The notes under the pieces: generated by a model | What the model saw: the letters and a program-made list of their open reading frames with translations, nothing else | Database searches by the model: none | Told to the model about the DNA's origin: nothing | NCBI GenBank assembly: GCA_016861185.1 | Contig: BOKW01000001.1 | Location: 124,001-188,000 of the forward strand | Direction: 5' to 3' | Length of the DNA stretch: 64,000 nt | Origin: Betaproteobacteria bacterium | GTDB taxonomy: Bacteria > Pseudomonadota > Gammaproteobacteria > Burkholderiales > Burkholderiaceae_F | Shown: positions 10,441-29,199 of the stretch, one piece after another | Layout: each line of letters opens with the position of its first letter | Position numbering within the stretch: the first letter of the stretch is position 1 | Translations under genes and position numbers: made by a program

Positions 10441-10529
10441 GCATCGCCGGGCGGCGCGGCTACGCCGAAAGGGGTAGCCCGCAAAGAAGTCCGCGGCGTA
10501 TTGCTTTTCCGGCCGGACCGGGGTAAGTT

Positions 10530-10552
10530 AACGTGCATCGCTGATGCATCTT
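10530..10552. promoter_or_regulatory. NsrR-like operator overlapping a predicted promoter
   Basis: A 23-base imperfect palindrome with 11-1-11 geometry: AACGTGCATCG, one base, then TGATGCATCTT. Read on the other strand the left arm is AAGATGCATCA, close to the proteobacterial NsrR half-site (AAGATGCATTT). It starts directly after a weak sigma70-like promoter (TTGCTT at 10501, 17 bases, TAAGTT at 10524), so a bound repressor would sit on the start of transcription. NsrR is a nitric-oxide-sensing repressor. The assignment is by pattern only. Confidence 0.5.
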
Positions 10553-10574
10553 TAACCACCTGCTGGGCCGAACC

Positions 10575-10847
10575 ATGACCATCGCCACGACCATCGACGT
10601 GCGCACGATCGTGCCGCGCGAACGCCATCCGCTGATCTTCCGCACCTTCGAGACGCTCGGCGCCGGGGAGAGCTTCCAGCTCGTCAACGACCACGATCCG
10701 AAGCCGCTCTATTACCAGTTCCAGGCCGAGCTGCAGGGCAGGTTCACCTGGGACTACCTCGAGCAGGGTCCCGAGGTCTGGCGCGTTCGCATCGGCAAGA
10801 CCGGCGTCAAGGGCGCGCTGCCCGGCGACGAGTGCTGCGCCGGCTGA
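10575..10847 (+). CDS. DUF2249 domain protein (first copy)
   Basis: A 90-residue cytoplasmic protein of the DUF2249 family, a small TusA-like alpha/beta fold of unknown role often encoded near denitrification and NO-response genes. The family core is visible: [36 protein letters not shown]. It ends in an unusual ECCAG with two adjacent cysteines that could act as a redox or metal site. It is first of four genes (DUF2249, ferredoxin, DUF2249, FmdE-like) behind an NsrR-like site. No enzymatic activity can be stated. Confidence 0.85.
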
Positions 10848-10872
10848 TCGGCGCGGGCGACGCGAGCGTGCG

Positions 10873-11253
10873 ATGACCTTCGTCGTCACCGAGCCCTGCA
10901 TCAGCTGCAAGTACACGGATTGCGTCGCCGTCTGTCCGGTCGACGCGTTCCGCGAAGGGCCGAACGCGCTGGTGATCGATCCGGTCGAATGCATCGACTG
11001 CGCACTGTGCGTGCCCGAGTGCCCGGTCGAGGCGATTTACGCCGAAGAGGACGTCCCCGCCGACCAGCGCGACTTCATCCCGCTGAACGCCGAGCTGGCG
11101 CGCGTGTGGAAGCCGATCACGCGCGTCAAGCCCGCGCTGCCCGACGCGGACGAATGGGCCAAAGTGCGCGACAAGCGCGACCGGCTCGACCGCGGCGACG
11201 GCCGCCGCGCGAGCGCAACCGCCGATTTACCCACCGCCGAGACCACCCGATGA
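10873..11253 (+). CDS. 7Fe-type ferredoxin (FdxA-like)
   Basis: A 126-residue ferredoxin carrying one 3Fe-4S and one 4Fe-4S cluster. The first motif [14 protein letters not shown] and second [12 protein letters not shown] match the FdxA family. The fifth cysteine often present in FdxA (PVDC) is alanine here (PVDAF), but that position is not a ligand in the characterised 7Fe proteins. A charged C-terminal tail of about 25 residues ([13 protein letters not shown] and onward) exceeds the usual length of about 107. The stop overlaps the start of the next DUF2249 gene. It probably transfers electrons within the small redox cluster. Confidence 0.92.
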
Positions 11254-11519
11254 GCGAAACCCTGACCCGTCCGCACCTGCACCTTTCGCCCGACGCGATC
11301 TATCCGTTCGACGCGCGCAGCATCGCCAAGCGCTTCCGCCACGCGGCGATCTTCGGCGCGCTCGACGCGCTGACGAAGGGCGAAACGATGCGCTTCATCA
11401 ACGACCACGACCCGCTGCCGCTGCTCGCGCAGCTGCAGGCGCGCTACGGCGCCGGCATCGAGATCACCTACCGCCAGCGCGAACCCGGCGCGATCGTGAT
11501 CGACTTCGTGAAGCAGTAG
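11250..11519 (+). CDS. DUF2249 domain protein (second copy)
   Basis: An 89-residue DUF2249 protein, paralogous to the copy at 10575. Both share the FxxLxxGExxxxxNDHDPxPL core. This copy lacks the C-terminal double cysteine and ends IVIDFVKQ. The ATG overlaps the ferredoxin stop by four bases, so it is coupled to that gene. A pair of DUF2249 proteins flanking a ferredoxin suggests a fixed functional unit, possibly in nitrosative or redox stress, but the biochemical role is unknown. Confidence 0.85.
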
Positions 11520-11530
11520 GCCGGCGCGCG

Positions 11531-12142
11531 ATGCGTTACCCGGCGTTTTTCGACGAGGTGCCGCGCATCGCGCTGCACGATCCGCTCGCCGAATTCCTCG
11601 GCGCCCTCGAAGGCGGGCTCGTCGAGTTCTCGTATCTGGACGCGGTGCGGCTGGCGGGCCATTCGTGCCCGACGGTCGCCTCGGCCTACGGCATCACGCG
11701 GCGTGCGCTCGCCGCTCTGTACGGCGACGCGCTGCCCGAGCGCGGCGCGCTGCGCGTGAGCTTCCGCGAGCCGATCGGCGAAGGCGTCACGGGCGTGATC
11801 GCCAACGTGGTCTCGATGCTGACCGGCGCCGCGCACGACGGCGGCTTCAAGGGCATCGCCGGCCGCTTCTTCCGGCGCGATCTGCTGGCTTTCGGCGCCG
11901 AGCAGCCGCTCGCGCTGCGCTTCGCGCGCATCGACACCGGAGCGTCCGTCGACGCCGAAGCGGACATCAAGCGCGTACCCTCGGACCCGCGGTTGCCGGC
12001 CCTGCTCGCGCGCGCCGCCGCCGGCGAGGCGGGCGCCGACGAGCTGCGCCGTTTCGGCGAGCTGTGGCAGGACCGCGTGCGGCGCCTGCTGCTCGAGCAC
12101 GGCGACGACCCCGCGGTTTTTCGGATCGAGTCGCGCGCATAA
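11531..12142 (+). CDS. FmdE-like domain protein
   Basis: A 203-residue protein with a GHSCP motif at residues 43-47, the histidine and cysteine that mark FmdE domains (proteins first seen in a molybdenum formylmethanofuran dehydrogenase operon, probably metal binding). The following segment GVTGVIANVVSMLTGAAHDGGFKGIAGRFFRR also fits the family pattern. It lies 11 bases after the second DUF2249 gene and is likely the last gene of the NsrR-like-controlled unit. The assignment rests on motif resemblance; the function of stand-alone FmdE-like proteins in proteobacteria is not established. Confidence 0.55.
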   Translation: MRYPAFFDEVPRIALHDPLAEFLGALEGGLVEFSYLDAVRLAGHSCPTVASAYGITRRALAALYGDALPERGALRVSFREPIGEGVTGVIANVVSMLTGAAHDGGFKGIAGRFFRRDLLAFGAEQPLALRFARIDTGASVDAEADIKRVPSDPRLPALLARAAAGEAGADELRRFGELWQDRVRRLLLEHGDDPAVFRIESRA

Positions 12143-12151
12143 TCGGCGGGC

Positions 12152-12811
12152 ATGACCCGCCAAACGCTGCCGCTCGACGACTCGCTGTACGAGTACCTGC
12201 TCGCCAACTCGCTGCGCGAGCACCCCGAACTCGCCGCGCTGCGCGAGGCCACCCGCACGCACCCGCGCGCGAGCATGCAGATCGCCCCCGAACAGGGACA
12301 GCTGATGGCGCTGCTCGTCAAGCTCCTCGGCGCGCGGCGGACGATCGAAATCGGCGTCTTCACCGGCTACAGCGCGCTCGCGGTCGCGCTCGCGCTGCCC
12401 GACGACGGCCGCATCCTCGCCTGCGACATCAGCGACGAATACACGCGTGTGGCGCGCGAGTACTGGCAACGCGCGGGGGTGGCGCACAAGATCGAACTGG
12501 TGCTCGCGCCCGCCGCGCAGACGCTCGCCGCGCGGATCGCCGCCGGCGAGGCAGGGACCTACGACTTCGCCTTCATCGACGCCGACAAGACCGGCTACGA
12601 CGGCTATTACGAGCAGTGCCTGCAACTGCTGCGCGCCGGCGGGCTGATCGCGATCGACAACGTGCTGCGGGGCGGCGCGGTCGCGCGGCCGGCCGACTCC
12701 GACGACACGCGCGCGTTGCAGGCGCTCAACGCCAAGCTGCACCGCGACGAACGCATCGATCTGGCGCTCGTGCCGATCGCCGACGGCCTGACGCTCGCGC
12801 GCAAGCGCTGA
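12152..12811 (+). CDS. Class I SAM-dependent O-methyltransferase (caffeoyl-CoA OMT family)
   Basis: A 219-residue methyltransferase of the Methyltransf_3 family. The SAM-binding motif is EIGVFTGYSALAVA (about residues 66-79), and the metal/substrate region FIDADKTGYDGYYEQ and IDNVLRGGAV are typical of the cation-dependent catechol/caffeoyl-CoA group. The substrate cannot be deduced. A CATAAT box lies only nine bases before the ATG, so the transcript may have a very short leader. It is not obviously coupled to the cluster upstream. Confidence 0.9.
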   Translation: MTRQTLPLDDSLYEYLLANSLREHPELAALREATRTHPRASMQIAPEQGQLMALLVKLLGARRTIEIGVFTGYSALAVALALPDDGRILACDISDEYTRVAREYWQRAGVAHKIELVLAPAAQTLAARIAAGEAGTYDFAFIDADKTGYDGYYEQCLQLLRAGGLIAIDNVLRGGAVARPADSDDTRALQALNAKLHRDERIDLALVPIADGLTLARKR

Positions 12812-12889
12812 GCGGTCGAGCCCGGCACCCCGTTTCCCGGGAGCGGGAGAGGGCGCCACTTCGCAACGCGCCGGCATAATCGCCGGCGA

Positions 12890-14245
12890 ATGCCCATGCC
12901 GCGGCTGCTGCGCCATACGATCCTTTCGATCCGCGACCTCGTGGTCAGCGCGGGGCCGTTCGTCGTGCTCGCACTCGTGCTGCTGTGGGGCGCGTACCTG
13001 CTGCTCGACCCGGCACCGCCCAAACGCGTCGTGCTCGCCACCGGACCCGAGCAGGGTGCGTACGCGGAGTTCGGCAAACGCTACGCGGAGCGGCTCAAAG
13101 GCCTCGGCATAGAGGTCGTGCTGAAGGGCACGCAGGGTTCGGCGGAGAACCTCGCGCTGCTGCGCGACCCGGCGCAGAACGTCGATCTCGCCTTCGTGCA
13201 GGGCGGCTCGGGCGCCGCGGTGCTCGCGGTCGACGAGGACAAGGGCGGCGAGCCGCTCGTTTCGCTCGGCAGCCTGTTCTACGAACCGGTATGGCTGTTC
13301 TATCGCGAAGACGCGGCGAAGCGGCTGAACAGGAACGCAGCGCTGTCGCACCTGTCGCAAGTCGCCGGCTGGCGCGTCAACATCGGCGCGCCGGGCAGCG
13401 GCGCGCCGCCGCTGTGGGCCAAGCTGCTGCACGCCAACCGCATCGACGCGGCGTCGATCCGCCAGGGCCAGCTTGCGCCCACGCCCGCGGTCGTCGCGTT
13501 TCTCGCGGGCGAGCTGGACGCGCTGCTGTTCGTCTCGGCGCCCGAGTCGCCGCTCGTACAGATGCTGCTGCAGACGCCCGGCGTGAAGCTGTTCGACTTC
13601 GCGCAGGCGGAGGCGTATTCGCGCCGGCTGCCCTTCCTCAGCGCGCTCGCGCTGCCGCGCGGCGTCGTCGATCTGGCGAAGGACATCCCGCCGGCGGACG
13701 TGCAGTTGATCGCGCCGACCTCGTCGCTGGTCGCGCGCGCCGGCACGCACCCGGCGCTGATCCAGCTCTTCGTGCAGACCGCGCAGGCGGTGCACGGCGA
13801 CACCGGCTGGTTCGCGCGCGCCGGCACCTTTCCCTCGGCGCAGAACGTCGAGTTGCCGCTCGCGAACGAGGCGGCGCGCTATTACCGCAGCGGGCCGCCG
13901 CTGCTGCAGCGTTACCTGCCGTTCTGGCTCGCCAACCTGATCGACCGCATGTGGGTCGCGCTGGTGTCGATCGTCGCGGTGCTGATTCCGCTGTCGCGGA
14001 TCGTTCCGCCGCTGTACGAGTTCCGCATCCGCTCGCGCATCTTCCGCTGGTACGGCCAGCTGCGCGAGATCGAGGACGAGCTGGGCCGCCGCACGACGCC
14101 GCCCGACGAGCTTGCGAAGGAGCTCGACGCGCTCGACGCGAAAGTCGAGCGCATCAACGTCCCGCTGTCGCATGCCGACGAGCTGTACGCGCTGCGCTCG
14201 CATATCGGCATGGTGCGCGCGCGGCTGCGACAGGCGGCTGCGTGA
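12890..14245 (+). CDS. TAXI-family TRAP-type solute-binding protein, membrane anchored, orphan
   Basis: A 451-residue TAXI-family receptor. An uncleaved N-terminal helix (about residues 20-42) is followed by the LATGPEQGAYAEFGKRYAE ligand-binding start and the KGTQGSAENLALLRDP repeat segment of the family. Unlike classical TRAP receptors it has a second membrane helix near WVALVSIVAVLIPLS and a cytoplasmic tail of about 90 charged residues. No TRAP permease (DctQ/DctM type) is encoded nearby. The architecture suggests a membrane-tethered sensor or a receptor serving a permease elsewhere. Confidence 0.85.
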   Translation: MPMPRLLRHTILSIRDLVVSAGPFVVLALVLLWGAYLLLDPAPPKRVVLATGPEQGAYAEFGKRYAERLKGLGIEVVLKGTQGSAENLALLRDPAQNVDLAFVQGGSGAAVLAVDEDKGGEPLVSLGSLFYEPVWLFYREDAAKRLNRNAALSHLSQVAGWRVNIGAPGSGAPPLWAKLLHANRIDAASIRQGQLAPTPAVVAFLAGELDALLFVSAPESPLVQMLLQTPGVKLFDFAQAEAYSRRLPFLSALALPRGVVDLAKDIPPADVQLIAPTSSLVARAGTHPALIQLFVQTAQAVHGDTGWFARAGTFPSAQNVELPLANEAARYYRSGPPLLQRYLPFWLANLIDRMWVALVSIVAVLIPLSRIVPPLYEFRIRSRIFRWYGQLREIEDELGRRTTPPDELAKELDALDAKVERINVPLSHADELYALRSHIGMVRARLRQAAA

Positions 14246-14291
14246 TCGGCTTCCCCCGCCATCTGCAGCGGACTTGACGTACCGCAACGGG

Positions 14292-14340
14292 TTCGCCGGA
14301 CACCGGCGAATGATGGCCCGGCGCGCCGCTCACGGCGCGC
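14292..14340. other. Two adjacent GC-rich hairpins before the repeat protein
   Basis: TTCGCCGG/CCGGCGAA with a three-base loop (14292-14310), then GCGCGCCG/CGGCGCGC with a four-base loop (14321-14340). They lie between the TAXI gene and the repeat-protein ribosome site. No T run follows, so they are not a classical terminator. They may be a processed or Rho-linked 3' end for the TAXI gene or a leader structure for the repeat protein. Confidence 0.5.
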
Positions 14341-14356
14341 TCCAGGGAGGCCAACA

Positions 14357-14710
14357 ATGGCTCGAAACCGCCATGCGCTGACGGGCGTCGTCGCCGCGTT
14401 CGCGCTGCTCGCGGCGCCTTCGCTCGCGCTGTCGCAAGGGCAGGCGCCACAGATCAAACAGCCGCCGTCGAAGGAGGCGACGCCGATCGAGATCCCCGGC
14501 AAGGCCGCGCCGCAGATGAAGAAGCCGCCGTCGAAGGAAGCCACCCCGATCGAGATTCCGGGCAAGGCGCAACCGAAGGCCAAGCTGCCTCCGCCCAGGG
14601 AGGCCACGCCGATCGAAATCCCCGGCAAGACCAAACCGCAGGTGAAGAAGCCGCCTCCGAAAGAGGCCACGCCGATCGAGATCCCGGGCAAGCCCGGGCC
14701 GGCCAAGTAG
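14357..14710 (+). CDS. Secreted protein of four 21-residue EATPIEIPGK repeats
   Basis: A 117-residue protein of unknown function. Residues 1-26 form a signal peptide (VVAAFALLAAPSLALS, cleavage likely before QGQA). Residues 34-117 are exactly four tandem 21-residue units, each containing PP(S/P)(K/R)EATPIEIPGK, basic and proline rich, running to the C-terminus. Such a sequence should be extended and unstructured in the periplasm or outside the cell. AGGGAGG eight bases before the ATG is a good ribosome site. It precedes the lipase-CHAT operon by 134 bases on the same strand; a predicted promoter lies between, so linkage is suggestive only. Confidence 0.8.
   Translation: MARNRHALTGVVAAFALLAAPSLALSQGQAPQIKQPPSKEATPIEIPGKAAPQMKKPPSKEATPIEIPGKAQPKAKLPPPREATPIEIPGKTKPQVKKPPPKEATPIEIPGKPGPAK
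14456..14707 (+). repeat. Tandem repeat, 4 x 63 bases, coding
   Basis: Four exact-length 63-base units in frame, checked by the spacing of the GATCGA motif at 14485, 14548, 14611 and 14674. Third-position changes between units show that the protein repeat is conserved while codons drift, which indicates an old, maintained array and not a recent slippage product. Confidence 0.9.
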
Positions 14711-14775
14711 CCGCAAGGCGATCGTCGCACCGGCGCCCGCGCGAAGTCGCGCGTGAATATTCATGCGCGGCTTCG

Positions 14776-14804
14776 TTGCGCCGCGCCTGATCGCCGCCTA
14801 TACA
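14776..14804 (+). promoter_or_regulatory. Predicted sigma70 promoter of the lipase-CHAT operon
   Basis: TTGCGC (14776-14781), a 17-base spacer, and TATACA (14799-14804). Transcription would begin near 14811. That is downstream of the in-frame ATG at 14809, which supports ATG 14845 (with GGGGGGAG ahead of it) as the true lipase start. Confidence 0.5.
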
Positions 14805-14844
14805 GGGAGTGGCATCAGCGCTCAGCGGCGCTGAAGGGGGGAGC

Positions 14845-16221
14845 ATGAGCGCGTTCGGTGACGTGGTGATCCTGCTGCCGGGCATCACCGGCAGCGTGCT
14901 GGCCAATGCGGCGGGCAAGGAGGTGTGGAGCACCTCGGCCGGCGCGATCTGGCGGGCGATCAAGTCCTTCGGCGGTTCGATCGAAGACCTCGAACTGGCG
15001 ACCGACGGCGATCCGCGCGGCGTGCAGGCAACCCGCCTGATGCCGGATCTGACGATCGTTCCGGGGCTGATCAAGATCGACGGCTACACGCGGATCGAGG
15101 AGTATCTGATCGCGCAACTCGGCCTCGAGCGCGGCAAGAACTACTTCCCGTTTCCGTACGACTGGCGGCTCGACAACCGGATCAACGCGAAGCGGCTCGC
15201 CGACCAGGCGCTCGACCGGCTGAAGAAGTGGCGGGCGTCTTCGGGCAACGCGCAAGCGAAGCTCGTGCTGATCGGCCATTCGATGGGCGGGCTGGTGTCG
15301 CGCTACTTCCTCGAATGCCTGGGCGGTTGGCGCGACGCGCGCGCGCTGTTCACGCTCGGTACGCCGCACCAGGGATCGCTGAACGCGGTCGACTTTCTCG
15401 TGCACGGCATGAAGAAGGGCATCGGTCCGCTCGGACTCGACCTGTCCCCGCTGCTGCGCTCCTACCCGTCGGTCTATCAACTGCTGCCGATCTATCGCTG
15501 CATCGACACGGGCGACGGCGCGCCGTCGCTCGTGAAGGACGCGGCCGCGGCGGGCAGGTTGCCGAACGTGCACGCCGACCGGGCGCAGCAGGCGCGCGAC
15601 TTCCACCGGGAGATCGAGGACGCGCAGAAGCGCAACGCGCGCGAATCCGCGTACGCCGAAAACGGCTACCGGCTCGTGCCGCTGGTCGGCATCGAACAGC
15701 CGACGCTGCAGTCGGCGCGCGTATCCGGGACCGAGGTCGAATTGCTGCGCAGCCTGGAAGGCCACGACGATGCCGGCGACGGCACCGTGCCGCGCGTCTC
15801 CGCCACGCCGATCGAGCTCGAGGGCCAGGAACGCGAGATCTTCGCGGCCGAAATGCACGGCTCGCTGCAGAACGGCGACGGCACGCTGGCGAACCTGAAG
15901 GGGATGCTGCTCGCGCCGAAGACCGACTTGCGCAAGCTGCGCGCCGAGCTGCCGACCGCGCTGTCGCTCGATCTGGACGACGTCGTGCTGCCCGGGCAGC
16001 CGCTGACCGTGCGCGTGCGCGCCGGCGAAGGCAACCCGCGCGTCGAGGCCACGCTGACCCACGTACCGACCGGCAAGACGCTCGCCGAGCCGCTCGTGCG
16101 GGCGCGCGAACCCGGCTGGCAGCACGCCGAGTTCGATCTCGAACCCGGCACCTGGCGCGTGCGCGTGCAGGCGCCGGGCACCGCAGCGGTGACCGATCTG
16201 GCGATGGTCGTCGCGCCATGA
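14845..16221 (+). CDS. LCAT/PGAP1-like alpha/beta-hydrolase (predicted cytoplasmic lipase) with C-terminal Ig-like domain
   Basis: A 458-residue lipase-like protein related to lecithin:cholesterol acyltransferases. The N-terminus VVILLPGITGSVL is the family oxyanion region. The nucleophile motif GHSMGGLVSRYF places Ser at 146; FTLGTPHQGS follows; GDGTVP gives Asp312 and EMHGSL gives His338, so a full catalytic triad is visible. Residues about 370-458 look like a beta-sandwich. There is no signal peptide or membrane helix, so it should act in the cytoplasm, on the inner membrane or on a small ester. Its stop overlaps the first CHAT gene by four bases. Likely role: an effector phospholipase controlled by the CHAT proteases (inference). 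Confidence 0.82.
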   Translation: MSAFGDVVILLPGITGSVLANAAGKEVWSTSAGAIWRAIKSFGGSIEDLELATDGDPRGVQATRLMPDLTIVPGLIKIDGYTRIEEYLIAQLGLERGKNYFPFPYDWRLDNRINAKRLADQALDRLKKWRASSGNAQAKLVLIGHSMGGLVSRYFLECLGGWRDARALFTLGTPHQGSLNAVDFLVHGMKKGIGPLGLDLSPLLRSYPSVYQLLPIYRCIDTGDGAPSLVKDAAAAGRLPNVHADRAQQARDFHREIEDAQKRNARESAYAENGYRLVPLVGIEQPTLQSARVSGTEVELLRSLEGHDDAGDGTVPRVSATPIELEGQEREIFAAEMHGSLQNGDGTLANLKGMLLAPKTDLRKLRAELPTALSLDLDDVVLPGQPLTVRVRAGEGNPRVEATLTHVPTGKTLAEPLVRAREPGWQHAEFDLEPGTWRVRVQAPGTAAVTDLAMVVAP

Positions 16222-18266
16222 GCACGCCGACCGCCACGCTCACCTGGACGCGCGACTTCATCGTCGTCGACGGCGGGCTCCTCGCGGCGCAGGCGCTGCA
16301 GTCGATCGAGGAATCGACCGCGCGCTGGGTCGTGATCCGGCGTAGCGACACGCCCGCCCATCTGTACGCGTTCACCGTCGACGAGCTGCTGCAGCACCCC
16401 GCGCTCGTCGCGGCGCGCGAGCGCGGCGCTCCGCTCGATGTCCCGCTGCAACGGTTGCTCGACCTGCACGAGGAGGATTCGAGCACGCCGGCCGCGAATC
16501 CCGACGATCCGCCGCCGATCGACCGCTCGTGGCGCCCGGTCGCGGATGCGCCGAGCGTCGATCGTTATGTCGCAGTGGCGGCCGACGGCGGGCCGATCGC
16601 CGTCGGCGGCGCCGATGTCGAGCGCGAGCGGCGCCCGCGCAGCGCCCGCGCGCGTCCGCCGGCGCTGCCCGCCGCCGTCGGCGCGGCCGCGCCGCTGGAC
16701 GATGCACGCCCGCAGGCCGACGGCGACGACGAGCCGGCGGAGGACGAAGGCACCGCTCCCGTCCGCTATCCGTCGATCGAAACCGACGCGCCGCCCGCGC
16801 CGGGCGCGAAGCTCGCGTTCACGGTCGATCTGCTGCGCAAGGAAACGACGCATACGCAGGGCGGGGCGCTCGCGATCGCGGGGCTGGCGCCGGACTGGAA
16901 GACGCTGGAGCTGACCGTCGTGCTCGCCTGCCCGCGCATCCGCTTCGACGGCGAAGGGCGCGGCAAGGTCACGATCCGGCGCAACGCGGCGTCGACGCCG
17001 GCGCAGATCAAGGGGCGTGTGGCGGCCGGCGCGCGGCCGGGCGAAACGATCACCGTCGCGGCGACCTTCTTCGACGGCACGCGCTTTTGCGGCGCGGCCG
17101 CGCGCAGCTTCACAGTGGCGGCGAAAGACGCGCTGCCCGCGGCGCCCGCCGCCGCGGTGGCCGCGGCGCCGCAGCCCGAGCGCACGCGCGGAACGATCGT
17201 CGCCGAGCCGGGCGTACGCGGCCCCGATCTGACCGTGCGCATCTCGACCGACGAGGACGCGAAGAACAAGCTCACCTGGCAGGTCGAAACCGTCCGCTTC
17301 GACGGCCTTCCGCCCAAGCTGCGCGCGACCGCCAAACTCGATAGCGACACGCGAAGCGAAGCAACGGAGCTTTTCGCCGAGTTCGCGCAGCTCGAACGAG
17401 GACAGCATCGCAACCGCATCGAAGGCTTCGGCGACCGGCTGTGGCAGCGCGCGCCGCAGATGTTCCGCGACGTCTACTGGGCGTTGTGGGATCACTACCG
17501 GCGGCGGCTGACGATCCAGTTCATCAGCGACGAGCCGTATCTGCCGTGGGAGCTGATGCGGCCCGCGCGCGCCGACGACAGCGAAGTGCATCCGCCGCTC
17601 GCGCTGAAGCACGCGGTCGCGCGCTGGATCGAGCGCTGGGACGGCTACATGCGCAACCAGCTGCCGGGCGGCGCGGTGTTCACGATCGCGCCCAAGTACG
17701 CGACCGCCAGCCGGCGGCTGCCGCGCGCGCAGACCGAAGCGCAAATGCTGATCGAGCGCTTCGGCGCGCAGCGCGTCGAGGGCACGCGCGGCGACGTGAC
17801 CGCGCTGCTGCAGTCGGCGCCGGCCGCGCCGGTGGCGGTGCTGCATTTCGCCGGGCACGGCGTATTCGCGCCCGGCGCAAGCACCGAGTCGATCATCAAG
17901 CTCGAGGACGGCGCGCTCGCCGCGAGCGAAGTCGGCCGTCCCGAGGTGCGGCTCGGCAAGGCCTGCCGCACGCTGGTGTTCTTCAACGCGTGCGAGGTCG
18001 GCGCCACCGGCAGCATCTTCGGCGAAGTCGGCGGCTGGGGCGATGCGTTTCTCGGCCGCCAGTTCGGCGGCTTCATCGCGCCGCTGTGGTCGGTCGACGA
18101 CGAGGACGCGAGCGTGGTCGCGACCGAGCTGCTCGAAGGCATCGTCGAGCGGCGCGAGCCGATCGGCGAAGTGTTGCGCGCGGTGCGCGAAAAGCACGGA
18201 GACGTGTCGCCGACCTTCTACTCGTACCTGTACTACGGCGACGTGACGGCGCATCTCGCGGCGTAA
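16218..18266 (+). CDS. CHAT-domain (caspase-like) protease, first
   Basis: A 682-residue protein with a C-terminal CHAT peptidase domain (about residues 440-682). The catalytic dyad is intact: His547 in HFAGHG and Cys592 in FFNACEVGA. Residues 1-100 form a small unrecognised N-terminal domain, 100-200 a low-complexity acidic/Pro/Ala linker, and about 200-300 a beta-rich segment (LAFTVDLLRKETTH, LELTVVLACPRI). A further conserved region (RLTIQFISDEPYLPWELMRP) leads into CHAT. ATG overlaps the lipase stop (ATGA). CHAT proteases are known in prokaryotes as regulated cysteine proteases, for example partners of gasdermins and of type III-E CRISPR; here the neighbour is a lipase. No signal peptide. 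Confidence 0.85.
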   Translation: MSTPTATLTWTRDFIVVDGGLLAAQALQSIEESTARWVVIRRSDTPAHLYAFTVDELLQHPALVAARERGAPLDVPLQRLLDLHEEDSSTPAANPDDPPPIDRSWRPVADAPSVDRYVAVAADGGPIAVGGADVERERRPRSARARPPALPAAVGAAAPLDDARPQADGDDEPAEDEGTAPVRYPSIETDAPPAPGAKLAFTVDLLRKETTHTQGGALAIAGLAPDWKTLELTVVLACPRIRFDGEGRGKVTIRRNAASTPAQIKGRVAAGARPGETITVAATFFDGTRFCGAAARSFTVAAKDALPAAPAAAVAAAPQPERTRGTIVAEPGVRGPDLTVRISTDEDAKNKLTWQVETVRFDGLPPKLRATAKLDSDTRSEATELFAEFAQLERGQHRNRIEGFGDRLWQRAPQMFRDVYWALWDHYRRRLTIQFISDEPYLPWELMRPARADDSEVHPPLALKHAVARWIERWDGYMRNQLPGGAVFTIAPKYATASRRLPRAQTEAQMLIERFGAQRVEGTRGDVTALLQSAPAAPVAVLHFAGHGVFAPGASTESIIKLEDGALAASEVGRPEVRLGKACRTLVFFNACEVGATGSIFGEVGGWGDAFLGRQFGGFIAPLWSVDDEDASVVATELLEGIVERREPIGEVLRAVREKHGDVSPTFYSYLYYGDVTAHLAA

Positions 18267-18280
18267 ACGACGCGCACTGA

Positions 18281-21200
18281 ATGGCGAACCCCGCGCCGCT
18301 CTATTCGCCGGTCACGCAGCCGGTCGAGCATCTCGCCGAACGCGTCGCGCGCGGCGAGCTGCGGCTCGACCAGGCGCGTGCGCTCGCCGCCGCGCCGGGC
18401 ATCACCGCGCGGCTCGACCTCGGCTACACGCAGTCGGTCGCGCAACTGATCCACCATCTCACGAAGATCGGCCGCGGCGAGCCGGCGCTCGTCGTCGCCG
18501 ACGTGCTGCTCGCCGCCGTGCAGTCGCTGCCCGACGACGCGGCGGGATCGAAGCTGCGCGCGCCCGGCGAGCTGGCTTACATCGAAAGCGTGCAGTCCGC
18601 CCTGCGCGAAAAACCCGACTGGCGCAACTATCGCGCGGCCGGCGCGGTCGGCGCGCGGCTGCTGCGCCGGGCGCATCGGCTCGGCGATGCGCAGCTTGCG
18701 CGCTGGGCGCACAACATCCTCGGCGAGCTGCACTTCCAGCCGCTCGTCGCGCCGTATGCCGGCGGCGGCAGTTGGCCGGCGGCGATCGGCGCGTGGTACC
18801 GCCGCGGCGGCGAGATCTCGGGCAAGGCGCGGCCGTTTCCGCCGCCTGCGGTTGCTTTCGCCAACGCGCTGCGCCACTTTCGCCGCGCCGCGCGCGGTGC
18901 GCCCGACGAGGACCGGTGCTGGGCGCTGAAGGGCCAGGTGCAGGCGCTCGAATGGCTGCAACGCGTGCGCGGCACGTCGCACGCGGAAGAGATCGCAGCG
19001 CTCGCCGCCGAAGCGCTGCCGCTGATCGACCCGCGCGAAGATCTGGCCGGCATCAGCTATCTGATGAACCTGCGGCAGCAGGCTGGCCATCCGATCGACG
19101 CGGAGGTCTTCAAGCGTGCGCTTGCGGTGCCGGTGCAGGAACTGATCGACCGCAGCGGCCCGGCGGCGACCGTCACCGCGCATCTGAACCTCGCGCACCT
19201 GATCGAGCCGCTCGACGCCAGGCTCGCGCTGGCGCTGATCGAACGCGCCGCGCCCGCGGTCGAGCAGGCGCAGGACGCGAACGTGCTGGCGCGCCACTGC
19301 AACGCGCTGATCGGCACGCTGGTCGCGACCTTGTCCACCGACGCGATCGACAACGGCGCCGGCACGCTCGCGGCGGCGCGCGGATTGCGCGCGCGCGCCG
19401 AGGCCGAGCAGTGGTCGGTGCCGCGCGTGGTCGGCGCGCTGCTCGCGCTCGTGCGCGACTGCCCGGCGCGCAACGAGGAGATCGAGGGGCTGAAGCTGCT
19501 GGAAACCGCGCAGCAGGTGTTCCCCGATCCGTTCAACGCGTATCCGGCGGCGATGAACTTCTGGCGCATGACGCTGTGGTCCGGTGAAGGGGTGAACAAC
19601 GCCAACGCCGGCAAGCTGCGCGAGGCGATGGCCAGTTACGCGAACGCGCTGCGGCTGGCGGTTCCGCTGGGCCTGCGCGAGTTCGCGCTGCAGCAGCTCA
19701 AGTACCTGGTCGACATCGGACTGCGCGACGAAGGCGCGCTGCTGCTCGAGTTCGTCGGCGTGCTGTTCGATCTGGGGCTCAAGCTCGAGATCGCGCTCGG
19801 CGCCGAAGGGGCCGAGCAGTTGCAGATGCTGGCGACCCATCTGACCGAACGCCAGGTCGCCACCGGCGAGATCAACACGAACGTGCTGCACTTCACCTGG
19901 CAGGTCGCGAAGGCGCGCCGCTTCAGCGCGGCCCTGCGCGTCGGCGCGGCGCGTGCGCTGCCGGGCGACGAAACGAGCGCCACGCTGCTCGCGCAGATCG
20001 CCGCGCTGCGCACCGAGGTTCCGCTCGCCGAAGAAGGCACCGGGCCGGGCAGCCGCATCGACCGCACGCGCCGGCTGCTCGCGTTCGCGCGCGACGGGAT
20101 CCCCGCGGCCGGCGCGACCGCGCTCGAGCGCATGACCAACCTGCAGGCGCGCTTCGACGCGCGGCTGGAGCGCCGGCTCGCCGCGCAAAGCGACGTCCGC
20201 GAATCGGAACTGTTCGGCCTCGAGGATCTGCGCGCGCGGCTGCCGGAGCGAACCGCGCTGCTGCAGATCTTCCTCGGCGAATACGCCGGAAAGAGCGCCG
20301 TGCACTCGCTGCTCGCCGCGCGCAAAGGCACCTGGGCCGCGGTCACGCCGGAAGATCGGCCGCTGCTCGTGGAGTTCCGCGAAGCCGAACGCAGCGAGCG
20401 CGCCTATGCGTACGAAGAAGACGTGTACCTCACGCGCAGCGCGCTGCTCGACGAGTCGCTGACCGAGGCGCAGCTCGGCGAATTCCTGCACGCGGCCGGC
20501 GGCGCCTTCCTGCACGGCAACGTCGGCGCCGCGCTCGACGAACTGAAGAAGACCGGCTGCGATCACCTGCTGGTCGTTCCGCACGGACCTTTCCACTTCG
20601 CGCCGCTGCAGCTCTTCGCGCGCGGCAAACGCCTGCTCGCCGACGAGTGGAACGTGACCGTGCTGCCGAGCATCGAGCTGCTGCGCCCGCGCGCCGACGA
20701 CGGTGCGGACAAGCCCGCGCGCGCGGGTGTGGCCGCGTTCGGGCTCGGCTTCGCGGGACCCGAGAACGTGTACGGGCTGGGCGCGCTGCCGGAAGCGGTC
20801 GACGAAGCGCGGCGCGTGGCCAAGGCCTTCGGCGCCGAGGCGCGCGTCGACGCGCAGGCGACCGAAAGCGCGGTGCTCGCCGCGCTCGCGCAGGCGCGCT
20901 ACCTGCACCTCGCCACGCACGGCGCGATGAATCTGGACGCACCGTCGTTCCAGTACGTCGTCGTCGCGCCGGCCGCGGGCGGCGACGGCCTGCTGTTCGC
21001 GCACGAACTGCTCGGCGCCGACCTGCGCGGCGTGCAACTGGTGAGCCTGAGCGCGTGCGAAACCGCGCTCGGCCGCATCGACCGCGCCGACAACCCGCGC
21101 GGGCTGCCGGCGGCGCTGCTGCTTGCGGGTGTGGAGACGATCGTCGGCACCTTATGGGAGGTCGCCGGCGACGTCGCGCGCGCGTTCTTCGTGGCGCTGT

Positions 21201-21325
21201 ATCGCGCGCTCGCCGCCGGCGGCGCGCGAGGCGCATCGTTCCGCGCCGCGCAGCTCGAAGTGCGGCGCAGATTCCCGCATCCGCGCGACTGGGGGGCGTT
21301 CTATCTGTTGGGCGGTTGGGATTGA
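18281..21325 (+). CDS. CHAT-domain protease with long helical (TPR-like) N-terminus, second
   Basis: A 1014-residue protein. About 600 residues of alpha-helical, Ala/Leu-rich repeats (for example AMASYANALRLAVPLGLREFALQQL) resemble TPR-type solenoids used for sensing or protein contact. The CHAT domain occupies roughly residues 640-1014, with His880 in HLATHGAMN and Cys926 in SLSACETALG, plus the family features LLVVPHGPFHFAPLQLF and GVETIVGTLWEV. It starts 14 bases after the first CHAT gene, so one transcript carries lipase and both proteases. TPR-CHAT proteins act as activated proteases in other systems. The target here is unknown; the lipase or the other CHAT protein is plausible. Confidence 0.87.
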   Translation: MANPAPLYSPVTQPVEHLAERVARGELRLDQARALAAAPGITARLDLGYTQSVAQLIHHLTKIGRGEPALVVADVLLAAVQSLPDDAAGSKLRAPGELAYIESVQSALREKPDWRNYRAAGAVGARLLRRAHRLGDAQLARWAHNILGELHFQPLVAPYAGGGSWPAAIGAWYRRGGEISGKARPFPPPAVAFANALRHFRRAARGAPDEDRCWALKGQVQALEWLQRVRGTSHAEEIAALAAEALPLIDPREDLAGISYLMNLRQQAGHPIDAEVFKRALAVPVQELIDRSGPAATVTAHLNLAHLIEPLDARLALALIERAAPAVEQAQDANVLARHCNALIGTLVATLSTDAIDNGAGTLAAARGLRARAEAEQWSVPRVVGALLALVRDCPARNEEIEGLKLLETAQQVFPDPFNAYPAAMNFWRMTLWSGEGVNNANAGKLREAMASYANALRLAVPLGLREFALQQLKYLVDIGLRDEGALLLEFVGVLFDLGLKLEIALGAEGAEQLQMLATHLTERQVATGEINTNVLHFTWQVAKARRFSAALRVGAARALPGDETSATLLAQIAALRTEVPLAEEGTGPGSRIDRTRRLLAFARDGIPAAGATALERMTNLQARFDARLERRLAAQSDVRESELFGLEDLRARLPERTALLQIFLGEYAGKSAVHSLLAARKGTWAAVTPEDRPLLVEFREAERSERAYAYEEDVYLTRSALLDESLTEAQLGEFLHAAGGAFLHGNVGAALDELKKTGCDHLLVVPHGPFHFAPLQLFARGKRLLADEWNVTVLPSIELLRPRADDGADKPARAGVAAFGLGFAGPENVYGLGALPEAVDEARRVAKAFGAEARVDAQATESAVLAALAQARYLHLATHGAMNLDAPSFQYVVVAPAAGGDGLLFAHELLGADLRGVQLVSLSACETALGRIDRADNPRGLPAALLLAGVETIVGTLWEVAGDVARAFFVALYRALAAGGARGASFRAAQLEVRRRFPHPRDWGAFYLLGGWD

Positions 21326-21723
21326 GGCTGCGTACCCAGCTTGCCGTAGGCGGTCGACTGCCTTGGCCTGGACCCTAAGCGTCCTCAGGTCGTCGGCGTT
21401 GCTGCAAGTGCCAGCGATTGGCGTCGCACGTTATCGCGCCGTAGCTGCAGACCCTCTGCGGCTCGATTGCGCTGCAGGATTGGCGAACGGCTGCGTTCGA
21501 CCCATTGCGGACTCTTGGATCTTCAGGAAACGGGCATTCGGAGCGCAGCGAAAAGTGGCGCGCAAGGCTTCGTGTTGAATCCTGAAGATCACAATCCACG
21601 ACCTTCACGCATGCACGGCAGAAAAGGGACGGGTCACTGCGACAACTGCCTCCGCAGCTACCGCGAACGCGAATGCGCCCCGCTCAGATGCAGCAGTAGC
21701 ACCCGCGGCATGGCGACCATCCC
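21326..21723. other. Gap without a recognisable gene
   Basis: About 400 bases between the second CHAT gene and the converging LysR gene. Codon use and base composition look less GC-biased than the flanking genes. Short open frames here show no recognisable protein. A 10-base inverted repeat, GATCTTCAGG at 21518 and CCTGAAGATC at 21581, is separated by 53 bases. No T-run terminator was seen. It may be a decayed insertion or the border of an acquired segment. Confidence 0.5.
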
Positions 21724-22626
21724 TTACCCGCGCAGCGCGGCGATACGGCTGCGCAGTCGCGGCACAACGAAGTCGACGAAACTGCGGACGTTTGCCGACA
21801 ACAGCCGGGTCTGCGGATAGACGACGTGGATGGGCGTCGGCGTGGGCCAGTACGGTTCGAGCACCGGCTTGAGCTTGCCGCCGCGCAGCGACTCCTGCAC
21901 CTGGTAGTCGAAGAACTGCGCGTAGCCCAGCCCGCGCTGGCACGCCGCGATCGCCGCGTCGATCTGGTTGGTGGCGAACACCGTGTTCACGGGCACCCGC
22001 ACCGCTTGGCCATCGGCGACCATCGGCCAGTCCTGCGGCGACACGAGCCCCATGAAGCTGACGCAGGGCGCGGTCTTCAGGCTCTGCACCTCGACCAGCC
22101 GGTGACGGCGGATCAGCGCTGCGCTGCCCACGACAATGCGGCGCGTCTCGCCCACGCGCACTGCCACGAGTGACGAGTCCGGCAAATGCGCGAGCCGCAC
22201 GCCGACATCGATGCCTTCCTCGATCAGATCGATCACGCGGTCGAGCAACACTGCTTCGACGCGCAGTTGCGGGTGCGCCGCCATGAAGTCGACCACCAGC
22301 GGCACCAGGAGCGCGCGGCCGAAGGTCACCGATGAGGTGATCCTTAGCCGGCCACGCGGCTCGGCGCGGCGTGCGCTCAGGCTCGCCTCGGCCTCGTCGA
22401 CCGCAGCCAGCACCAGTTTGCAGCGCTCGTAGTACTCGCGGCCTTCGTCGGTCAGCGCCATCCGGCGCGTCGTGCGGTTGATCAGCCGCACCCCGACCGC
22501 TGCTTCCAGTGCGGCAAGTAGCCGCACCATTGATGGCTGCGACACGTCCAGTGCGTCGGCGGCGGCAGTGAGGCTGCCGGCGTCGACGATGCGGACGAAC
22601 GCGGCCATCGCCTTGAACTTGTCCAT
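21724..22626 (-). CDS. LysR-family transcriptional regulator
   Basis: A 300-residue regulator. Residues 1-60 are the winged helix-turn-helix (MDKFKAMAAFVRIVDAGSLT, SQPSMVRLLAALEAAVGVRL, then the wing RTTRRMALTDEG). Residues 90-295 form the periplasmic-binding-like effector domain (RLRITSSVTFGRALLVP). The start is ATG 22626; longer in-frame versions lack family similarity. It diverges from the AhpD-like gene with a 145-base gap, the usual arrangement for a LysR protein that controls the adjacent operon. The inducer is unknown. Confidence 0.92.
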   Translation of the reverse strand: MDKFKAMAAFVRIVDAGSLTAAADALDVSQPSMVRLLAALEAAVGVRLINRTTRRMALTDEGREYYERCKLVLAAVDEAEASLSARRAEPRGRLRITSSVTFGRALLVPLVVDFMAAHPQLRVEAVLLDRVIDLIEEGIDVGVRLAHLPDSSLVAVRVGETRRIVVGSAALIRRHRLVEVQSLKTAPCVSFMGLVSPQDWPMVADGQAVRVPVNTVFATNQIDAAIAACQRGLGYAQFFDYQVQESLRGGKLKPVLEPYWPTPTPIHVVYPQTRLLSANVRSFVDFVVPRLRSRIAALRG

Positions 22627-22771
22627 CCGCGCATTATCGACTGCTGCATTTTCTGCAGCAATGAACTGAGCGCGGCCCCATCGACCCCGGCGCGGCCCGC
22701 GCGCACGATGCGTCCTGTTCGCGGCGCATCCGCCGCCGGCGAGTCCACCCGAACCCCGAAGGAGATCCACC

Positions 22772-23332
22772 ATGGCCCGCGTATCCGTCATCGATCCGAA
22801 CACCGCCACCGGCGAGGCCGCCGCGCTGCTCAACGCGGTGCAAGCCCAGCTCGGCATCACCCCCAACTTCATCCGCGTGCTGGCCAACTCGCCGAAGGCG
22901 CTCGAAGGCTTCCTCGGCCTGTACGGCGCGGCCGGCAGCTTCGCCGTCGACAAGGCCACGCAGGAGCGCATCGCACTCGCCGTGGCCGAAGGCAACGGCT
23001 GCCAGTACTGCGTCTCCGCGCATACCGCGATGGGACGTCATGCCGGCCTGTCGAACGACGAGATGCAGCTGAACCGCCGCGGCACCTCGGCGGACGCAAA
23101 GGCGGCCGCCGCGGTTGCCTTTGCCAAGGCGCTGAACGACAACCTCGGCGAAGTAACCACCGCGGAGTTCGAGGCCGCGCGCAGTGCCAAGCTGACGGAC
23201 AGCGAGATCGTCGAGATCATCGCGGTGGTGGCGCTGAACATCTTCACCAACGTGCTGGGCAAGGCCACCCGCGTCGAGATCGACTTCCCGAAGGTCGACC
23301 TGATGGACGCGCGACGGAAGGCGGCCGCGTAA
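22772..23332 (+). CDS. Carboxymuconolactone decarboxylase/AhpD-family protein
   Basis: A 186-residue all-helical protein of the peroxidase-related AhpD-like group. The redox motif CQYCVSAHT (CxxC followed by His) is intact, as in AhpD-type alkylhydroperoxidases and unlike true carboxymuconolactone decarboxylases, which lack the cysteines. The N-terminus ITPNFIRVLANSPKALEGFLGLYG is typical. AAGGAG lies 10 bases before the ATG. It is divergent from the LysR gene and followed after 75 bases by the flavin/Fe-S fusion gene. A role in peroxide or reactive-carbonyl detoxification is likely. Confidence 0.88.
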   Translation: MARVSVIDPNTATGEAAALLNAVQAQLGITPNFIRVLANSPKALEGFLGLYGAAGSFAVDKATQERIALAVAEGNGCQYCVSAHTAMGRHAGLSNDEMQLNRRGTSADAKAAAAVAFAKALNDNLGEVTTAEFEAARSAKLTDSEIVEIIAVVALNIFTNVLGKATRVEIDFPKVDLMDARRKAAA

Positions 23333-23407
23333 GCGCAGCGAGGGAGCAGCACCGGCCCGGCCGACCCCGCACGGCCGGCCAACTGAACTCAGGTTGACGA
23401 GACGACG

Positions 23408-24994
23408 ATGGCCCGCAACTTCGCCGAGATCGCCTTCACGCCCAGCGTGCGCGAGTTCCAGACGCGCATGGGCAGCCTGGACCGCTACGCTGCACTCGAC
23501 GGCATGGAAGGCCGCGGCACGGTCCTGACCGACCGCGAGACCGAATTCATCTCCGAGCGCGACGGCTTCTACCAGGCCACTGTCGGCGAAACCGGGTGGC
23601 CATACGTGCAGTTCCGCGGCGGGCCGGCGGGCTTCCTGAAGGTTCTCGATCCGAACACGATCGGCTACGCGGACTTCCGCGGCAACGTGCAGTACATCAG
23701 CGCCGGCAACTTGGCGCACGACGGCCGGATCGCGCTGATCCTGATGGACTATGCGCAGCGGCGGCGACTGAAGCTCTGGGGGCGCGCACGGCTGGTCGAC
23801 ACGCGCGACGACGCCGCGCTGACCGAGCAACTGGAGGTGCCGTCATACCGCGCGCGGGTCGAGCGCGCGGTCATTATCACCGTCGAGGCCTTCGACTGGA
23901 ACTGCCCGCAGCACATCACGCCGCGCTACACCGAGGCCGAGGTCGAGGCGGCCACCGCCAACCTGCGGGGCGAGGTGGCGCGCCTGCGCGCGGAGCTCGA
24001 GCGGCTGCGCGAACAAGGCGCGACCTCGAACACACTGGGCGACGGACCGCTGGCGCTGGTGATCGATGGCGTGCGCCAACTGACCCCGCGCATACGCGCA
24101 TACACGTTGCGTACGGCCGACGGGAGTGAGCTGCCGGCAATCGCCGCCGGCGCGCACCTCGACGTGCCGGTGCAGTTCGTCGACGGGCGTGTCGCCCAGC
24201 GACGCTATTCGATCGCGTCGGACCCGACGCAGCGCGATGCGTGGGAGATCGCGGTGCTGCGCGAAGACAACGGCAGCGGCGGTTCGGCGGCGGTGCACGC
24301 GCGGTTCGGCGTCAGCCTGCGGCTGAACACCGCCTTGCCTGGCAACGACTTCGCGCTGCATGACGACGCCCGCCCGACGGTGCTGATTGCCGGCGGCATC
24401 GGCATCACGCCGATCCGGGCAATGGCCTATGCGCTGCGGTCGTTGGGCCGCGACTTCAGGCTGCACTACGCCGCGCGCAGCCTCCGCGAGATGGCCTGGG
24501 CCGACGATCTGGCGCGCGAGTTCGGCCCGCGTATGCGGCAGTACCTCTCCGACACCGGGCCTCGGCTCCACGTTGATGCGCTGTTGCGAGACGCACCGGC
24601 CGACGCGCTGTTCTATGTCTGCGGCCCGGCGCGGTTGATCGACGCGGTACGCGCCGCGGCGGAACGACATGGCGCCGCAGATCGTGTGCGGAGCGAGCGC
24701 TTTGTGCCCCAGCGTCGCGGCAGCGATGCGCCGATCACGGTCAAGCTGCGCCGCTCCGGCAAGCGGGTCACGGTGCGACCCGAGCAGACGATCCTCGAAG
24801 CGGTCGAAGCCGCAGGCGTCAATGCGTCGTTCTCCTGTCGGAACGGTACGTGCGGCACCTGTGCAACCAAGGTGCTCGATGGCACGCCCGAACACCGCGA
24901 CGCCGCGCTGTCCGATGCCGAGCGCAACGTCGCCGGGCAAATGTGCATCTGCGTGTCGCGCGCCAGCACCCCGGATCTGACTCTCGACCTTTGA
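23408..24994 (+). CDS. Pyridoxamine-phosphate-oxidase-like / ferredoxin reductase / 2Fe-2S ferredoxin fusion
   Basis: A 528-residue three-part oxidoreductase. Residues 1-200 are a split-barrel PNPOx-like FMN domain (ETGWPYVQFRGGPAGF, GNVQYISAGNL). About 205-430 form an FAD/NAD(P) reductase module (RRYSIASDP for FAD; TVLIAGGIGITPIRAMAYAL for the nucleotide). About 445-528 are a plant-type 2Fe-2S ferredoxin with Cys477, Cys482, Cys485 and Cys513 (CRNGTCGTC and MCIC). A single chain can thus move electrons from NAD(P)H through FAD and Fe-S to the FMN domain. It follows the AhpD-like gene and is probably LysR-regulated. Substrate is unknown. Confidence 0.9.
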   Translation: MARNFAEIAFTPSVREFQTRMGSLDRYAALDGMEGRGTVLTDRETEFISERDGFYQATVGETGWPYVQFRGGPAGFLKVLDPNTIGYADFRGNVQYISAGNLAHDGRIALILMDYAQRRRLKLWGRARLVDTRDDAALTEQLEVPSYRARVERAVIITVEAFDWNCPQHITPRYTEAEVEAATANLRGEVARLRAELERLREQGATSNTLGDGPLALVIDGVRQLTPRIRAYTLRTADGSELPAIAAGAHLDVPVQFVDGRVAQRRYSIASDPTQRDAWEIAVLREDNGSGGSAAVHARFGVSLRLNTALPGNDFALHDDARPTVLIAGGIGITPIRAMAYALRSLGRDFRLHYAARSLREMAWADDLAREFGPRMRQYLSDTGPRLHVDALLRDAPADALFYVCGPARLIDAVRAAAERHGAADRVRSERFVPQRRGSDAPITVKLRRSGKRVTVRPEQTILEAVEAAGVNASFSCRNGTCGTCATKVLDGTPEHRDAALSDAERNVAGQMCICVSRASTPDLTLDL

Positions 24995-25227
24995 GCCCGC
25001 TGTCGCAGCGTCGTGTCATGAGTGTGCAGCGGGGCCAGGGAGCGCCCGACCGGTGACTCGCCGATCCGCGAAAGATCGCAACTGGCCGACTGGGGCCCCC
25101 CCGGAATCGCAGAAAGCGGGCCCTCCCAAGCAAGTGGGCTGATCGCGCGGAACGTGACCGGCCGCCTTAACGCGCATCAATCGACGCGCGCCGAGTGGCC
25201 CGGGAGACATCCCCAAACTCCACGGTC

Positions 25228-29199
<3,972 letters not shown>

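Follow-up and report, generated by a model that had tools for sequence, protein, structure and literature searches.

A lipase and CHAT protease gene pair with an optional second CHAT protease as a candidate cell-death or defence module

Three adjoining genes, for an LCAT-type lipase and two CHAT proteases (CHAT1 and CHAT2), lie within a 64,000-nucleotide stretch of DNA (the window, by which we mean the whole stretch that was analysed). Why would a cell encode a lipase beside two proteases, and do all three proteins belong to one cell-death or defence system, as a sequence-only reading of this DNA had proposed?

The locus and its three proteins

The genes had been described as either overlapping or no more than 14 nt apart, and the ORF list bore out these coordinates, with all three frames on the plus strand (Table 1): the lipase and CHAT1 genes overlap by 4 nt and a gap of 14 nt separates CHAT1 from CHAT2. 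Arranged head to tail on the same strand, the three genes probably form one operon. The lipase frame in the ORF list runs from a GTG at 14809 to 16221; we used the ATG at 14845 as the start, and this codon is preceded by GGGGGGAGC, which resembles a ribosome-binding site. For CHAT1, the open frame extends from 14925 to 18266, and the ATG at 16218 was chosen as its start because homologues begin at the equivalent position. The promoter previously placed at 14776-14804 found no support, as a scan of 13500-23000 returned 0 sigma-70-like sites, with the proviso that such scans are weak at the ~70% GC of this genome; the elements of the claimed promoter (TTGCGC/TATACA) match 7 of 12 consensus positions by manual count. 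The GC content of the operon was 0.685-0.748 versus 0.668-0.718 for flanking windows. The operon is not AT-rich, and its composition therefore shows no sign of recent gain. Immediately upstream of the lipase gene lies a small ORF with a hydrophobic, signal-like start followed by four 63-nt repeats, which had no Pfam match over the cut-off.

Table 1. Genes, protein parts and selected neighbouring genes at the loci described
Feature	Position	Strand	Description
Lipase gene	14845..16221	+	458 aa; LCAT family by Pfam
CHAT1 gene	16218..18266	+	682 aa; TCAD7-CHAT
CHAT2 gene	18281-21325	+	1014 aa; helical repeats + CHAT
Repeat ORF	14357-14710		117 aa
Lipase protein parts			alpha/beta-hydrolase core with GHSMG (S146) and D312/H338; linker with Arg366; short C-terminal region
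CHAT1 protein parts			TCAD7 ~12-94; low-confidence linker; beta-rich domain ~184-300; separase-fold CHAT region ~325-682
L012 neighbours			IetS, AbiEi, AbiEii (PADLOC); one caspase gene without match
L013 neighbours			IetS, IetA (PADLOC)
L014 neighbours			caspase model, weak ThsB (PADLOC)
L015 neighbours			ThsB, one strong and one weak (PADLOC)

The lipase matches the Pfam family LCAT (PF02450) over the cut-off at 64.8 bits. Its S146/D312/H338 triad is invariant in 22/22 aligned lipases, and the HSMG motif is present in all of the best 120 of at least 4947 homologues. A sequence search of the PDB gave weak relatives only, among them triacylglycerol lipases and group XV phospholipase A2; action on membrane phospholipids is thus far putative. 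All three proteins had been said to lack export signals, and a simple hydropathy scan agreed, finding no transmembrane-like stretch in any of them: the best 19-residue means were 1.63 for the lipase, 1.38 for CHAT1 and 1.67 for CHAT2, and the first 45 residues of the lipase peaked at 1.83 over 15 residues. The LCAT-type lipase is predicted to stay intracellular. An arginine in the linker, Arg366, is kept in 21/22 aligned lipases. Separase-fold proteases frequently cleave after arginine, which makes R366 a candidate cut site.

Pfam recognised a CHAT domain (PF12770, cut-off 24) in CHAT1 at 49.6 bits and in CHAT2 at 164.6 bits. At the N-terminus of CHAT1 it also found TCAD7 (PF19973, 41.6 bits, cut-off 24), a domain absent from the sequence-only reading. 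A literature search, with most subscription papers outside its coverage, retrieved no paper naming TCAD7 and found no role for it; TCAD9 is tied to vWA-MoxR-VMAP systems in the available text of one report (PMC10910872). The catalytic residues that had been named as intact (Ser146/Asp312/His338, His547/Cys592 and His880/Cys926) are all in place and invariant in our alignments, the CHAT1 dyad in 37/37 homologues and the CHAT2 dyad in 11/11 relatives. Among the best 120 of at least 155 CHAT1 homologues, the pattern around the histidine occurs in 117 and that around the cysteine in 119, and the four proteins missing a pattern keep the HG and AC motifs on reading by eye. By family and conserved dyad, CHAT1 and CHAT2 are CHAT peptidases whose proteolytic activity is predicted. 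The first ~640 residues of CHAT2 were modelled as helices, with the CHAT region carrying H880/C926 after them, in a structure model built from 11 sequences. Fold matches were drawn from Foldseek's top 1000 chains only, and a PDB sequence search with the CHAT1 profile gave no match. In the host genome (85.6% complete) there are two CHAT matches, both in this operon.

A conserved pair and a variable third gene

To place the locus among its relatives, we drew on eight genome loci from a scan of genome contigs with a CHAT1 profile (A1; a single-protein scan found none) and on one genome of the same order (G520). At five loci of this pool (L003, L004, L005, L006 and L021) the best segment of CHAT1 reaches 41% identity or more. 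In these five and in the window, 6/6 in all, the lipase and CHAT1 genes share the 4-nt overlap, gene starts at unannotated loci having been assigned mechanically. The overlapping letters are ATGA in five of the six and GTGA in L006. The lipases of the five other loci are LCAT-type and 53-67% identical to that of the window; one of these loci, L005, lies on a 1.38 Mb contig of a Gemmatimonadetes MAG.

Protein searches gave at least 155 homologues of CHAT1 at E 1e-3, at least 4947 of the lipase and at least 32 matches to CHAT2, lower bounds from scoring the ~8000 candidates that shared most words. When the best 120 of the CHAT1 homologues were compared with the best 120 of the lipases, 25/120 CHAT1 homologues matched a lipase homologue in longest-contig size and source, an indirect measure that gave 0-2 matches under 12 shifted sizes. 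Protein distances of the 25 pairs correlate with r 0.80, a value that 0/5000 shuffles attained (highest 0.50). This correlation fits joint inheritance, as any two co-inherited genes would show it whether or not they function jointly. By these comparisons the LCAT lipase and CHAT1 form a conserved module, the conserved unit of the locus, which recurs in bacteria that are only remotely related. The overlap of their genes, together with joint inheritance, suggests that the two proteins work together.

The co-occurrence of all three genes had been expected, and it held strongly for the lipase and CHAT1 and only in part for CHAT2. A tblastn search with CHAT2 did not detect it in L004, L005 or L006, and for this reason we do not regard it as a fixed part of the locus. 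It may be that the module consists of the lipase and the TCAD7-CHAT protease alone, CHAT2 being an independent protease gene that lies downstream by chance. Its absence from these three loci despite the pair being there would fit, as would the scarcity of the CHAT2 family, with at least 6 near-full-length members (P0121-P0126, own included) against at least 155 CHAT1 homologues. However, for three of the six members, counting the window's own, there is a CHAT1 homologue with the same contig size, and one of them, on an 8074-bp contig labelled Chthoniobacterales (MAG-derived, so that the taxon may be misassigned), matches both a CHAT1 homologue and a lipase. In L003 and L021, moreover, the pair adjoins canonical TPR-CHAT genes (1041 and 1051 aa) on the opposite strand, their starts beside the lipase, and the contig size of a further TPR-CHAT, P0127, equals that of the CHAT1 homologue P0025. 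We therefore consider an accidental third gene rather unlikely and describe CHAT2 as an optional third component, or companion, of the lipase-CHAT1 pair.

The companion differs from locus to locus. The TPR-CHATs of L003 and L021 share 39% identity, and their BLAST alignment with CHAT2 is confined to its last ~110 residues. Downstream of the pair in L006 is a gene for a 1355-aa protein whose AAA/STAND scores are weak and below threshold. The pair's neighbour, a large repeat or NTPase protein, may therefore be an exchangeable sensor. A plasmid search with CHAT2 gave 52 records, none covering 80% of the protein, and the 12 matches listed align chiefly to the CHAT part. CHAT genes of other architectures at L007, L008, L009 (CHAT + CBM9), L015 and L016 were excluded from the CHAT2 count; at the actinobacterial loci L007, L008 and L009, the CHAT1-like genes adjoin a second CHAT gene that includes a fused CBM9-like domain.

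Distribution and genomic surroundings

The lipase-CHAT1 module was found in 2/399 genomes of the order, own included, and CHAT1 in 0/36 other genomes of the same family and in 1/4 of the family of G520; in the searches of the 399 genomes, at most two CHAT1 or four lipase candidates per genome were considered among the matches listed. A lipase profile (A3) matched four of the 399 genomes (own, G520, G415 and G679), and its two best matches fall in the two CHAT1-bearing genomes, own and G520. The weak lipase relative of G679 (L027) stands beside ABC1-kinase and radical-SAM genes on a 9.2 kb contig that ends near the lipase and contains no CHAT match. Among 398 genomes of the phylum, TCAD7 was found in the own genome, with one sub-threshold match besides. 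The module is thus rare and patchy in its spread. The phage records searched held no CHAT1 relative, an IMG/VR search gave one remote relative (L011), and a plasmid search with CHAT1 gave 12 records, five of which we examined.

The nine genes that flank the operon (~10.5-25 kb) include Pfam matches to ferredoxin, O-methyltransferase, NMT1-like, DUF2249, LysR, CMD and Fer2-oxidoreductase families; of the remaining two, one has a sub-threshold FmdE match and one is an ORF without a match over the cut-off. The immediate neighbours of the operon are the 117-aa repeat ORF and the LysR gene. Farther along, at 25-31 kb, are genes that we take to be gyrB, dnaN and dnaA from their translations, without a family search. 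By the nine flanking genes tested, the window is not a defence island.

Remote relatives of CHAT1 have other surroundings. At the plasmid loci, where identity to CHAT1 is 28-34%, the gene before CHAT encodes an LCAT lipase in L012 and L013. In L015 it encodes a metallophosphoesterase, and the neighbours tested in L014 and L016 gave sub-threshold hydrolase candidates only. A DUF7379 alpha/beta-hydrolase gene follows CHAT in L008 and L009 (Acidimicrobiia), and a metallophosphoesterase gene stands before it in L011; among the neighbours tested in L007 and L010 there was no lipase or hydrolase of this kind. The presence of a lipase, a DUF7379 alpha/beta-hydrolase or a metallophosphoesterase beside CHAT is as expected for a swappable effector. 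Ten neighbours at four alphaproteobacterial plasmid loci were run on PADLOC (Table 1), with single-gene matches rather than whole systems and without a background control. The neighbours in L011 include an IetA-like gene and another that scores on the PADLOC chat model. In L015 (5680-11774, plasmid pTiCFBP5877) the metallophosphoesterase gene overlaps the CHAT start, two further CHAT genes are convergent to the first, and TIR and caspase genes are nearby. In L013 (1-13094, a Rhizobium plasmid) the LCAT and CHAT pair has TniQ/TniB/DDE-transposase genes on one side and an IetA/IetS-like pair on the other, and is perhaps carried near a Tn7-like element.

The lipase relative of G415 (L026), third in rank among the four matches of the order and 42% identical, lies ~37 nt downstream of a gene for a GAF-nucleotide cyclase-caspase protein, whose caspase domain keeps the HG and SC motifs and which scores on Pycsar and caspase models in PADLOC. 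A GajA-like ATPase fragment and a methyltransferase-like gene are nearby, and the region (L026:8797-12271) is a possible cyclase-caspase-lipase defence system. The association of these genes with defence islands is indirect: the remote relatives on plasmids and the lipase relative of L026 sit among defence-type genes, while the nine genes flanking the operon in the window are of housekeeping type or unmatched.

These surroundings bear on two further explanations. One is a housekeeping or stress role unrelated to phages, in which proteolysis would control, for instance, how membrane or storage lipids are turned over. The flanking genes of the window agree with such a role, and close loci also lie beside ordinary metabolic genes, with PutA, a peroxidase with a LysR regulator and a P-type ATPase among the neighbours tested at L004, L005 and L006. 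However, the distribution is very patchy and remote relatives adjoin plasmid defence-type genes, and we consider this role improbable. The other is that the lipase restrains or serves the proteases, making or removing a lipid signal sensed by CHAT1, while the proteases cut other cell proteins. The conserved pairing is silent on direction, and a varying neighbour (lipase, other hydrolases, phosphoesterase) would suit signal-making enzymes equally. However, the lipase relative that follows the cyclase-caspase gene in L026 points to the lipase as the output, and Pfam recognised no lipid-binding domain in CHAT1; this arrangement, too, strikes us as distinctly unlikely.

A possible mechanism and its known counterparts

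Among the explanations considered, the likeliest is a death or defence module, on indirect evidence, with a protease-gated lipase as part of a conflict or abortive-infection system. The sequence-only reading of the locus as such a system is supported in part: a hydropathy scan gave no sign of export for the lipase and the proteases keep their dyads, but the third gene co-occurs only in part. We give a probability of about 45% to a protease-gated defence module in which CHAT2 senses, CHAT1 is switched on and the lipase is released or activated against the cell's own membrane lipids. The helical-repeat protein CHAT2 would stand upstream as sensor and initiator of the response to a trigger, presumably a phage. 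The TCAD7-CHAT protease would then be switched on and act on the lipase, either by cleavage, for example in the linker at Arg366, or by forming a complex with it. Once freed or activated, the lipase would damage the lipids of the cell's own membrane, and the infected cell would stop growing. We infer the action of CHAT1 on the lipase, the sensor role of CHAT2, the attack on membrane phospholipids and the phage trigger. A stricter version, a bacterial equivalent of the initiator-executioner caspase cascade with a lipase in place of the gasdermin pore, in which CHAT2 activates CHAT1, CHAT1 cuts its translationally coupled lipase specifically at Arg366, the lipase digests the membrane and the hydrolase is swappable between relatives, is doubtful in all its parts together. 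The near-invariance of Arg366 makes the cleavage idea directly testable.

The defence-gene models that we searched did not recognise the three operon proteins. PADLOC returned no significant match, gasdermin systems included; a LmuA match (11.7 bits, E 0.041) was judged to be chance. The accessible part of one paper (PMC10952713) lists a CHAT protease for the defence system Borvo, which shares with this locus a CHAT domain in a phage-defence gene, but neither CHAT1 nor CHAT2 has a PADLOC match at E 0.1. The operon also differs from the type III-E CRISPR Craspase (Csx29 TPR-CHAT and Csx30), in that the Csx29 model, the only one in NCBIfam to give a score, reached 19.1 bits against a cut-off of 300. 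A search of 9000-27000 for repeats (copies of at least 20 nt, spaced by at most 200 nt) found no CRISPR array, only the repeats within the upstream ORF at 14357-14710 and two 2-copy families. SAVED-CHAT proteins of type III CRISPR and CBASS are a precedent for an order of two proteases: there a CHAT protease sets off a proteolytic cascade, which according to the available text confers immunity (PMC11229360). However, Pfam found TCAD7 and CHAT alone in CHAT1 and CHAT alone in CHAT2, with no SAVED domain in either, and the operon has no nucleotide-cyclase gene.

Gasdermins are membrane-acting effectors released by proteolysis. In bacteria and fungi they are paired with CHAT proteases, sometimes with repeats, so that here, too, a membrane-acting effector would lie beside a CHAT protease; in the window, however, the partner is an LCAT lipase-family protein and not a pore-former. 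Similar clustering of gasdermin and protease genes is reported for bacteria in the accessible portions of two papers (PMC12881547, PMC10197012), and alpha/beta-hydrolases are listed as membrane-lipid hydrolases among the domains fused to the bacterial Death-like domain in the part available of a third (PMC8195603).

The sequence-only reading knew of no named system with this gene set, and that novelty shrinks in the light of the ternary systems. A literature search retrieved no paper containing both 'CHAT domain' and 'LCAT', and with most subscription papers outside its coverage absence in print is unproven. As far as the available text goes, Kaur et al. 2020 (PMC7159879) already describe the pairing of caspase and alpha/beta-hydrolase: wherever VMAP ternary systems have a caspase-superfamily domain, an alpha/beta-hydrolase is encoded next to it. 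The VMAP and MoxR-vWA ternary systems and the window thus share a caspase-clan peptidase adjoining an alpha/beta-hydrolase gene, and CHAT1 carries the Pfam 'Ternary complex associated domain 7'. They differ in that the peptidase of the window is of CHAT type and comes with a second CHAT protease. No MoxR ATPase, vWA protein or VMAP was found by Pfam among the nine flanking genes, and VMAP-C had no match in the own genome, nor in the control genomes. We therefore regard the lipase-CHAT set as a variant of the previously noted pairing. If the pair works as proposed, lipases can take the place of gasdermin as membrane-acting effectors, a protease cascade outside CRISPR would be added to those known, and the rule of Kaur et al. 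would gain a minimal example open to testing in E. coli.
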